Below are positions 1,386 to 14,148 of a stretch of 14,410 bases of DNA, piece after piece. How positions within the stretch are numbered: the stretch's first letter is position 1; each line of letters begins with the position of its first letter. Source of the DNA: Candidatus Roizmanbacteria bacterium (GTDB lineage: Bacteria > Patescibacteriota > Microgenomatia > UBA1406 > GWC2-37-13); the NCBI GenBank assembly GCA_024653985.1, contig JANLIS010000050.1, positions 1 to 14,410 of the forward strand, read 5' to 3'. Position numbers and translations under genes: made by a program. The notes under the pieces were generated by a model. It was not told the DNA's origin. It made no database searches and saw nothing but the letters and a program-made list of their open reading frames with translations.

Positions 1386-1416
1386 ATTATAAAACTGTTA
1401 ATCGTTAACAAGTCAA
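1386..1416 (-). promoter_or_regulatory. Candidate yifB promoter with internal palindrome
   Basis: On the minus strand TTGACT (1416-1411) lies 19 nt before TATAAT (1391-1386). The spacer holds the palindrome TGTTAA-TCG-TTAACA (1396-1410), a possible operator. The TATAAT ends only 3 nt before the ATG, too close for a normal leaderless start. The true -10 may therefore be shifted upstream (TTTATA with a 17-nt spacer), or the promoter may not be real. Confidence 0.35.
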
Positions 1417-1643
1417 TCCAAACTTACTTCGCCCAGTGTTTTTCTAAATCCTTCTAAATCTTCTTTAAACAAAATTATTGAATATCTGACTGACTTTTTA
1501 GTTGTTTTGTCAAACCTTGATTCAGTAATTCTCAAATACTTGCTTTTATTTTTTGCTTCATAGGTATCAAAAAATATAGTCATATTACTGCATTTTAGAG
1601 TTTTGGAACTTAACTTCGGCTTTGGTTGTATTTTTGTATCCAT
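1413..1643 (-). CDS. PUR-like (DUF3276-type) small nucleic-acid-binding protein
   Basis: A protein of 76 residues. I chose the ATG at 1643 over the in-frame GTG at 1655 because the Shine-Dalgarno AGGAGGTGA (1660-1652) overlaps that GTG and sits 8 nt before the ATG. The core (FFDTYEAKNKSKYLRITESR, then RYSIILFKEDLEGF and LGEV) resembles the bacterial PUR-alpha-like DUF3276 family: an aromatic beta strand, the ITESR segment and the KED-E-F helix start. Family members bind single-stranded DNA or RNA. The N-terminus (about 1-18) is basic and probably flexible. The gene begins 1 nt after the RAYT stop codon (TAA-A-ATG), so its expression probably depends on transcription, and perhaps translation, of the transposase. 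The family call is by motif memory; the alternative is an unrelated small beta-rich protein. Confidence 0.75.
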   Translation of the reverse strand: MDTKIQPKPKLSSKTLKCSNMTIFFDTYEAKNKSKYLRITESRFDKTTKKSVRYSIILFKEDLEGFRKTLGEVSLD

Positions 1644-1644
1644 T

Positions 1645-2208
1645 TTATGATTCACCTCCTTTCGATTTTAAATTATCTTCATCCTCATCCCAATTCATGG
1701 GATTATCCCTAATATATTGGCGGATTTTATTTAATTCATTTTCGTTACGGATTATGTGTTCATAATAATTACGTTGGAATATTTTGTTGTTTAATAAATA
1801 ATATTTGTGTATTTTATATGTACATTTTGATTTAAAATACCGGATAATTAATCCCAATGTAGGGGTTTGATTCATCAAACCCATATGACGATTTGATTTG
1901 GAAATATTCATTATTGTTTCGGGTTTCATAAATGAAACCCCTACATTATTTTGTTTAATCACGACAATCCCATGAATATGATTTGGCATAATTTGAAATA
2001 TGTCCAATTCAACGTTTTTAAAATATTTTGGTATTTCGTTCCAAGACCGTTTTGTAATATCTCCATGCTTGTTTAATACCATTTTGCTATTAATAATGTT
2101 GCCAAGTAAACATTCATTATCTTTCGTACAAATTGTGACAAAATACCATCCGGAATCGGAATAATCATAATTTTTTAAACGTATTTTTTTTCTAATTTTG
2201 AAAACCAT
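1645..2208 (-). CDS. REP-associated tyrosine transposase (RAYT, Y1 HUH superfamily)
   Basis: A protein of 187 residues, normal for the family. It has the N-terminal RAYT signature (YDYSDSGWYFVTICTKD, 14-30), the metal-binding HUH-type motif in MPNHIHG (H77, H79), the TLG-IIR-FKS helix (117-127) and IFQRNYYEHIIRNE (143-156), where Y148 or Y149 is the candidate nucleophile. RAYTs nick single-stranded REP DNA near a GTAG tetranucleotide. Here two REP hairpins in opposite orientation lie inside the gene, encoding residues 88-96 and 109-117 between the two catalytic motifs. The gene looks intact. The last residues (about LKSKGGES) are read from what is also the Shine-Dalgarno leader of the next gene, so the ORF end may have been acquired at insertion. 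No Shine-Dalgarno precedes its ATG; TGGACA at 2243-2238 could be a -35. Confidence 0.93.
   Translation of the reverse strand: MVFKIRKKIRLKNYDYSDSGWYFVTICTKDNECLLGNIINSKMVLNKHGDITKRSWNEIPKYFKNVELDIFQIMPNHIHGIVVIKQNNVGVSFMKPETIMNISKSNRHMGLMNQTPTLGLIIRYFKSKCTYKIHKYYLLNNKIFQRNYYEHIIRNENELNKIRQYIRDNPMNWDEDEDNLKSKGGES
1652..1660 (-). promoter_or_regulatory. Strong Shine-Dalgarno that sets the PUR-like start
   Basis: Minus strand AGGAGGTGA, a near-complete match to the anti-SD, lies 8 nt from the ATG at 1643. It is inside the last codons of the RAYT gene (encoding GGES). It is the only strong Shine-Dalgarno I found before a gene in this window. Confidence 0.8.
1858..1882 (+). repeat. REP element 1, inside the RAYT gene
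   Basis: The sequence TGTAG abuts a perfect 9-bp hairpin: GGGTTTGAT (1863-1871), loop TC, ATCAAACCC (1874-1882). The GTAG at the 5' foot matches the tetranucleotide at which E. coli TnpA-REP recognises REPs. It encodes MGLMNQTPT of the transposase on the other strand. Confidence 0.85.
1921..1945 (-). repeat. REP element 2, inverted relative to REP 1, inside the RAYT gene
   Basis: Read on the minus strand: TGTAG, then GGGTTTCAT, loop TT, ATGAAACCC. Against REP 1 one stem pair is swapped (G-C to C-G), a compensatory change. It is separated from REP 1 by 38 nt with the GTAG feet facing outward, like a BIME pair. It encodes NVGVSFMKP. Confidence 0.85.
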
Positions 2209-3639: not shown

Positions 3640-3683
3640 GATTTTACTAACTACGTTGAAGTAAACTTTGAGTTATCAATGTC

Positions 3684-3703
3684 ATTCCCGCGTAGGCGGG
3701 AAT
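3684..3703. repeat. dRS3-like palindrome
   Basis: ATTCCC-N8-GGGAAT, the 20-bp core that defines neisserial dRS3 repeats. The full stem is ATTCCCGC (3684-3691), loop GTAG, GCGGGAAT (3696-3703), flanked by TGTC and CCAGAC. It has no U-tract after it. It is probably a dispersed repeat; copy number in the genome cannot be seen here. Confidence 0.75.
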
Positions 3704-14123: not shown

Positions 14124-14148
14124 TGTAGGGGTCTGATTTATCAGACCC
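14124..14148 (+). repeat. REP element 3, in the recA leader region
   Basis: TGTAG, then GGGTCTGAT, loop TT, ATCAGACCC: the same design as the two REPs in the RAYT gene, with a compensated T-A to C-G change in the stem. It ends 26 nt before the recA ATG, so it would be transcribed as a leader hairpin if the promoter at 14082 is used. Confidence 0.85.

Follow-up and report, generated by a model that had tools for sequence, protein, structure and literature searches.

The closest described counterpart of the locus reported here is subclass 2.4 of the tnpAREP genes, in which REPs are predominantly inserted in frame inside the gene, generally between the HuH motif and the tyrosine (Quentin et al. 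2018, PMC6006769). The REP-bearing loop of this subclass was described as a peripheral extension, probably of little impact, and the same paper names W94, Q95, E100, H101 and R104 as the residues of E. coli TnpAREP that contact the GTAG (PMC6006769). K82 of that protein contacts the REP bulge and lies in the DNA-binding helix alpha3, and co-evolution of TnpAREP and REP has been published (PMC8266576). In the canonical REPtron, a RAYT (REP-associated tyrosine transposase) is flanked by cognate REPs (Nunvar 2010, PMC2817692), and REPINs are RAYT-associated inverted REPs separated by a short spacer (Bertels and Rainey 2011, PMC3116915).

Within the window, the whole 14,410-nt stretch of DNA that was analysed, we found three REPs (Table 1), each made up of a 4-nt GTAG foot, a perfect 9-bp stem and a 2-nt loop. 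An earlier note on this DNA had described 25-nt GTAG-footed hairpins; the hairpins and their feet stand, and their length is 24 nt. Two of them, REP A and REP B, lie in frame inside a RAYT ORF with their feet outward, 38 nt apart and between the HIH motif (residues 77-79) and Y165, where that note had placed them. The third is found beside recA, also as claimed (downstream gene, Pfam RecA, E 2.3e-25), and the stem differences among the three, G-C to C-G and T-A to C-G, are indeed compensatory. The REP pattern, at up to 3 mismatches, matched 3 times in the window and 0 times in 200 dinucleotide shuffles. Folded singly as ssDNA, the three REPs gave z-scores of -3.9, -4.1 and -6.5, and when the two in-ORF REPs are folded jointly (101 nt) they pair mutually into one long hairpin (z -3.2), as expected of a REPIN. 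The inverted pair with its short spacer is thus a BIME/REPIN-like arrangement, as had been proposed.

Table 1. Features of the RAYT locus and of related in-frame REPs (window positions unless a locus or contig is named)
Feature	Position	Strand	Remark
RAYT ORF, 187 aa	1645..2208	-	Profile matches below cut-off; Foldseek match 4er8
HuH motif H77-I78-H79	1972..1980	-	Both His present in 143/143 mapped ORFs
REP A, first in gene, GTAG + 9-bp stem	1921..1944	-	Encodes residues 89-96, VGVSFMKP
38-nt spacer between REP A and REP B	1883..1920	-	
REP B, second in gene	1859..1882	+	Encodes residues 109-117, MGLMNQTPT, on gene strand
Recognition-helix segment, residues 118-144	1777..1857	-	AF2 helix 118-136; starts directly after REP B
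GTAG-contact block F144 Q145 ... E150 H151 ... R154	1747..1779	-	Aligned to E. coli TnpAREP
Tyr165, likely catalytic tyrosine	1714..1716	-	Invariant column in alignment A1
Dispersed REP, same family as in-ORF REPs, just before recA	14125..14148	+	
tgt hetero-REPIN	L016:912-2156	-	Window's genome, C33:6136-6191
Double-foot REP in frame in DUF2298 membrane protein (GLINQTPT)	L004:3-1799	-	Window's genome, C35

The window ORF scores below the cut-offs of the curated families (NCBIfam NF047646, E 4.1e-13 and 49.5 bits, cut-off 80; Pfam Y1_Tnp, 19.1 bits, gathering 23), and both matches are restricted to the part after the REP loop. Many relatives, 60-70% identical to it, carry a precomputed Pfam PF01797 assignment. 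A Foldseek search with the AF2 model (mean pLDDT 79) gave as best PDB match 4er8, which is TnpAREP bound to a REP hairpin (E 3.5e-6, TM 0.56/0.63). The ORF has the HuH motif and the single tyrosine of a RAYT, the latter judged in alignment A1, which holds the window protein and 55 relatives, from 120 among 5562 relatives matched. The W/F Q ... E H ... R block is present as well, and its Q occurs in 140 of the 143 mapped ORFs. Tyr165 lies 20 residues past Q145, the same spacing as from Q95 to Y115 in E. coli TnpAREP, where Y115 is the residue that we take to be the catalytic counterpart. Because fold, motifs and REPs fit, the ORF is filed as a RAYT despite the sub-cut-off family scores, in line with the earlier identification. 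A DUF3276-like 80-aa ORF at window 1413-1655 (-) overlaps the 3' end of the RAYT ORF by 11 nt.

In the AF2 model, a strand (77-84) is followed by a loop (85-117) and then by a helix (118-136). The loop contains the REP-encoded residues, with pLDDT < 50 at 92-96 and 102-110, and the helix codons directly adjoin the last codon of REP B. K82 of E. coli TnpAREP precedes W94 by 12 residues, and the same count back from F144 leads to about residue 132, inside the helix. By residue register rather than structural superposition, the likely counterpart of this helix is alpha3, which binds the DNA.

The assembly (817 kb, 127 contigs, 86% complete) contains 17 distinct sites of the REP family, a hand count from 21 matches after merging of palindromic double matches and one shifted duplicate; a reversed control pattern gave 0 matches in the same assembly. 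Six sites lie in three RAYT ORFs and 11 elsewhere, the latter being the dispersed cognate REPs that characterize a RAYT. The hairpins therefore belong to a REP family of this genome, as the earlier note had claimed, and the search for more copies that it proposed does yield them. All 11 outside copies are of the ..TGAT.. type, like the second REP of the window, and the TTTCAT type was found by the assembly scan only inside the three RAYT ORFs. The pair of A and B recurs in these three ORFs only, so that the repetition of one pair through the genome that is typical of REPINs was not seen in the assembly; two dispersed REP pairs carry a different first REP, GTAGGGGCGCAAT.. We also considered whether the dispersed REPs descend from the in-ORF pair as their master copy, a proposal left unsupported by dispersed copies that are all of one type, that of the second REP. 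At loci L017 and L018, dispersed REPs have an additional short inverted repeat next to them (TTACACC..GGTGTAA-like in L017). Another palindromic repeat, CATTCCCGCGNAGGCGGGAAT, at window 3683-3703, is commoner in the genome than the REP, with 37 forward and 38 reverse matches at up to 2 mismatches (overlapping, as it is palindromic; control 0).

All five RAYT matches in the assembly have GTAG hairpins in the ORF. The RAYTs on contigs C61 and C38 share the in-ORF REP family of the window RAYT, the paralogue on C77 carries GTAGGGGCAACCC/GTAGGGGCAGGC, a type with one other place in the assembly, and that on C23 carries a double-foot palindrome of a type found nowhere else in the assembly. The paralogue at C38:21434-22027 has one in-frame TAA, and its in-ORF REPs are still intact. 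Among 20 genomes of the genus, 10 have a RAYT match; of 20 ORFs that could be mapped, 4 have no in-ORF REP and 16 do, counting the five from the window's genome. Two of those four, L237 and L242, are short-loop RAYTs accompanied by GTAGTGG.. REPs, as pairs on both sides of the gene in L237 and upstream only in L242. C61:25824 in the window's genome holds a REP near-identical to this type. Judged on 379 genomes of the phylum, the window's REP family is rare elsewhere: 8 have the pattern, the window's own included, and 7 of these 8 are among the 45 RAYT-positive genomes. One scan of viral contigs with a single protein, which detects close relatives only, gave no confirmed RAYT relative.

RAYT ORFs were surveyed in 80 of 561 matching contig loci, in the 379 phylum genomes (45 with a RAYT match) and in further genomic stretches; the selection criterion was similarity to A1, and as this alignment consists of the window protein's relatives, the sample is biased. 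Of 152 distinct RAYT proteins, 143 were kept and 9 dropped, their HuH or Q being unmappable by HMM. Counted as in-ORF REPs were hairpins between HuH and Q that have a GT[AG]G foot and a perfectly paired stem of at least 8. Such REPs occur in 110 of 143 ORFs (109 by GTAG alone), and the same hairpin pattern occurs in only 6 and 7 ORFs in the two remaining gene parts; with nine control feet the counts ranged from 0 to 7. Between HuH and Q the REP density is 5.09 sites/kb. The remainder of the ORF has 0.21 and 0.36/kb, and the 500-nt flanks have 0.98/0.59 per kb. As the ORFs are related by descent, these counts are not independent events. This HMM-mapped survey replaced an earlier, looser regex survey (84/100 ORFs).

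Codon shuffling left hairpins in a mean of 0.1 ORF and synonymous recoding in a mean of 1.5 (maximum 6, 60 draws), vs 110 observed. With hairpins so far above both nulls, it is the DNA and not the peptide that is conserved, and to that extent the suggestion of the earlier note about the hairpin is supported. Homologues that destroy the stem by their codon choice, named in the earlier note as evidence to the contrary, are not the rule, the stems being kept in those 110 of 143 ORFs; a counter-case is the genus relative L220, in which one stem pair of the first REP is lost to G-T and Pro is changed to Ser. Selection for the encoded peptides (VG.....P and the like) would account for the recurrence of VGVSFMKP and NQTPT in close relatives, but the REPs encode 166 distinct peptides in several reading phases, and synonymous recoding destroys the observed stems. 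The synonymous-codon null rejects this explanation, and we give it next to no credence.

There are 77 distinct 8-nt arms among the in-ORF REPs, and the GTAG phase that would yield a TAG stop is unused (0/96). The 110 cases comprise 52 double-foot units, 24 outward pairs, 1 inward pair, 21 and 7 single REPs and 5 others. The hairpins should form in the mRNA too, and RAYT could then bind its own gene or transcript and damp its expression. Most in-ORF units, however, face both strands, which counts against such autoregulation because a single mRNA site needs no such arrangement, and the hairpins lie in mid-gene; we regard this explanation as very unlikely.

No REP hairpin is present in either 500-nt flank in 59 of the 110 in-ORF cases. 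REP density is 2-4/kb beside the gene and drops to 0.05-0.10/kb beyond 500 nt. The possibility that in-ORF and flank REPs are mutual alternatives was rejected, since there is no anticorrelation: flank REPs accompany 51 of 110 ORFs with an in-ORF REP and 12 of 33 without. Where both occur (51 cases), 7.1 of 8 arm bases are alike, vs 4.6 for shuffled partners, and coexisting flank and in-ORF REPs are thus mostly of the same type. Matches to in-ORF REPs at up to 2 mismatches number 0.103/kb at the own locus vs 0.0028/kb at other loci, a 37-fold difference; the in-ORF REPs of 35 of 110 ORFs have at least one own-locus match and those of 75 have none.

REPs also lie in frame in other genes of the window's genome. 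The hetero-pair GTAGGGGCGCAAT.. / ..GTTTGAT.. is in frame in tgt (tRNA-guanine transglycosylase; VGAQFIAPKNKGLINQTPT) and is found again in a small ORF with no Pfam match. With the double-foot copy in the DUF2298 protein, 2 of the 11 dispersed sites are inside ORFs (tgt, DUF2298), or 3 of 11 if the small ORF is counted. A GTAG hairpin was seen in none of the tgt loci of 11 relatives, the nearest of which (79%) has no insert, and several of the 11 have other insertions in the same loop. Such cases favour neutral insertion, the reading in Quentin 2018, by which REPs occasionally land in a permissive RAYT loop and are tolerated there without function. The loop is disordered in the AF2 model, the positions, reading phases and architectures of the REPs vary among ORFs, and 9 ORFs have partly decayed hairpins in the RAYT loop, all of which fits as well. 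Against it stand the in-ORF REPs of 5/5 RAYT matches in the genome, vs the 2 or 3 of 11 other sites that lie in ORFs, the more frequent occurrence of REPs in the loop (110/143) than in the 300 nt upstream (47) or downstream (31), and the tie of REP type to the adjacent helix described below. On this balance we consider neutral insertion unlikely.

The helix segment was compared with the rest of the protein as a predictor of REP type, helix here meaning everything from the end of the last REP to Q, and core the remainder. Two of 110 rows had no usable helix anchor and were dropped, leaving 108 RAYTs for the correlations, and removal of one duplicate locus name left 107 rows elsewhere, among which there are 42 REP-arm types. 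The correlations were 0.297 (REP-helix), 0.334 (REP-core) and 0.152 (helix-core). The partial Mantel correlation of REP with helix given core was 0.264, with 0/999 permutations as high, and that of REP with core given helix was 0.306; since REP type tracks the core even when the helix is held fixed, descent matters too. Among pairs with a core identity of at least 0.6, REP arms agree (8 of 9) in 2%, 16%, 51% and 100% as helix identity rises (64, 64, 45 and 13 pairs, respectively). In leave-one-out prediction over the 107 RAYTs, with neighbours of core > 0.7 excluded, REP-arm identity was 0.841 for the nearest neighbour by helix, 0.648 by core and 0.549 at random, the helix neighbour being better in 73 cases, tied in 25 and worse in 9. 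The corresponding apex identities were 0.776, 0.491 and 0.404 (72 better, 21 ties, 14 worse).

A held-out genus set (n=10; L221, which has the same loop as L033, and rows of the own genome left out) gave apex identities of 0.75 by helix vs 0.50 by core (7-1, 2 ties, p 0.035) and arm identities of 0.78 vs 0.62 (5-1, 4 ties, p 0.11). In 14 RAYTs with flanking REPs only, apex identity was 0.61 by helix, 0.52 by core and 0.42 at random; the helix beats random (0/5000) and compares with the core at 8-3 with 3 ties (p 0.11), and for the arm at 5-3 with 6 ties (p 0.36; one of the 14 rows is a poly-G artefact). This flank-only set bears weakly on recognition rather than mere linkage. Across distant bacteria, then, the adjacent helix tends to be a better guide to REP type than is the remainder of the protein.

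The least biased test of exchange is offered by RAYTs that share a genome, and it shows the core to be common to paralogues and the helix to be random. For 30 within-genome pairs in 8 genomes, core identity was 0.615 vs 0.436 when permuted (0/2000 as high), and helix identity 0.334 vs 0.327 (694/2000 as high). Family f25, eight RAYTs from genomes G012 and G033, makes 13 of these 30 pairs; without it, 17 pairs gave 0/2000 for the core and 228/2000 for the helix, and without f25, C61 and C38, 10 pairs gave 0/2000 and 1440/2000. The C77 and window RAYTs are a case in point, with core 0.65 and helix 0.30. Mean DNA identity over the 28 pairs of f25 is 0.69 before HuH, 0.64 up to the REP, 0.52 after the REP and 0.69 after Q (shuffled baseline 0.50). 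The sharpest step is that between L143 and L149 of one genome, with 0.80, 0.88, 0.46 and 0.84 over the same four stretches. In many f25 pairs, divergence already extends to the stretch ahead of the REP (0.48-0.60 in 13/28), so only some of them, L143/L149 best of all, show a clear breakpoint at the REP foot.

For 7 of the 8 f25 helices a closer match lies outside the family than inside it, and one is tied (the outside set is larger). L117 of f25 and the proteobacterial RAYT L086 have an identical REP arm, with helix 0.66 and core 0.54, and the best REP-arm match between L114, from the window's phylum, and L063, from Geobacteraceae, is identical, with helix 0.62 and core 0.47. In AU tests of f25 as nearly one clade, the core alignment allowed the grouping (p-AU 0.20) and the helix rejected it (p-AU 3e-43), although these tests are biased because the partners were picked by helix similarity; when no partners are picked, f25 can be explained by 2 changes on the core tree, as against 7 on that of the helix. 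REP type needs 55 changes on the core tree and 33 on the helix tree (shuffled 70, floor 21), where trees of the helix segment are weak because it has only some 30 residues. The REP arm is common to 18 of the 50 pairs in which the helix lies most above the core, to 0 of the 50 opposite pairs and to 5.2% of all pairs. No near-identical donor cassette was found among 22 pairs with helix > core (helix DNA 0.51-0.77 identical), and the exchanges, if real, are therefore old.

Tree conflict of this kind leads us to infer exchange of REP and helix. The same data could arise by descent if helix and REP co-diverged fast together while the framework evolved slowly. REP type does track the core too (partial 0.306), the published co-evolution of TnpAREP and REP (PMC8266576) would be expected, and the helix segment is short. 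The recurrence of the same helix with the same REP in different frameworks, as in L114 and L063, and the sharing of core but not helix by within-genome pairs argue the other way, and we find descent without exchange improbable.

Our preferred reading, to which we assign a probability of roughly 0.6, is that REP and recognition helix form an exchangeable specificity cassette that keeps enzyme and substrate together. In the window, the inverted REP pair (REPIN) lies in the loop, disordered in the model, that joins the HuH strand to the recognition helix, and the framework would supply HuH, Tyr and GTAG contacts. RAYT presumably cuts single-stranded REPs, and the in-ORF REP would be a putative resident substrate or source of dispersed copies. 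REP and helix codons would pass as a single cassette, both by descent and by exchange from one RAYT framework to another, and a change of specificity would therefore bring its cognate substrate along. That this cassette is mobile, with recombination, perhaps by RAYT at the shared GTAG feet, swapping specificity and substrate together, is a more tentative proposal that we place slightly below even odds; by such a joint swap, new RAYT-REP pairs would arise without a mismatched intermediate. If true, an adjoining lock (REP) and key (helix) would be a simple solution to how RAYT and REP families change partners without mutual loss, and the 42 REP-arm types of the 107 RAYTs would be a readable specificity code for ssDNA-hairpin enzymes. 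The interpretation in the earlier note is partly supported; the adjacency of REP and recognition-helix codons and the pairing of REP type with helix type are absent from it.

The in-ORF REPs of the window are a fresh case of the published subclass 2.4 arrangement, with which they share GTAG REPs, double-foot forms included, in the variable beta3-alphaC insertion, known from many phyla (PMC6006769). REPINs resemble the window pair also in their compensatory hairpin changes, and differ in having been described from extragenic space, the pair here lying inside the RAYT ORF and the hetero-pair inside tgt (PMC3116915). The canonical REPtron has the RAYT and its cognate REPs in common with our survey, from which it differs in those in-ORF cases whose 500-nt flanks hold no REP hairpin (PMC2817692). 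Di Nocera 2013 (PMC3733652) reported that REPs and RPEs can also lie in frame within other genes, with REP-encoded peptides as here; those REPs are scattered over unrelated genes and do not lie beside a transposase recognition helix. No description of a REP-helix cassette turned up in a search of open-access literature that took in passages of PMC3686654, PMC2817692, PMC3116915 and PMC8266576. The passages on subclass 2.4 in PMC6006769 give no nulls, tie no REP to the recognition helix and describe no exchange of a cassette-like kind. What our analysis adds to that arrangement are the nulls for conservation at the DNA level, the link between REP and recognition helix, and the sharing of framework but not helix by paralogues.
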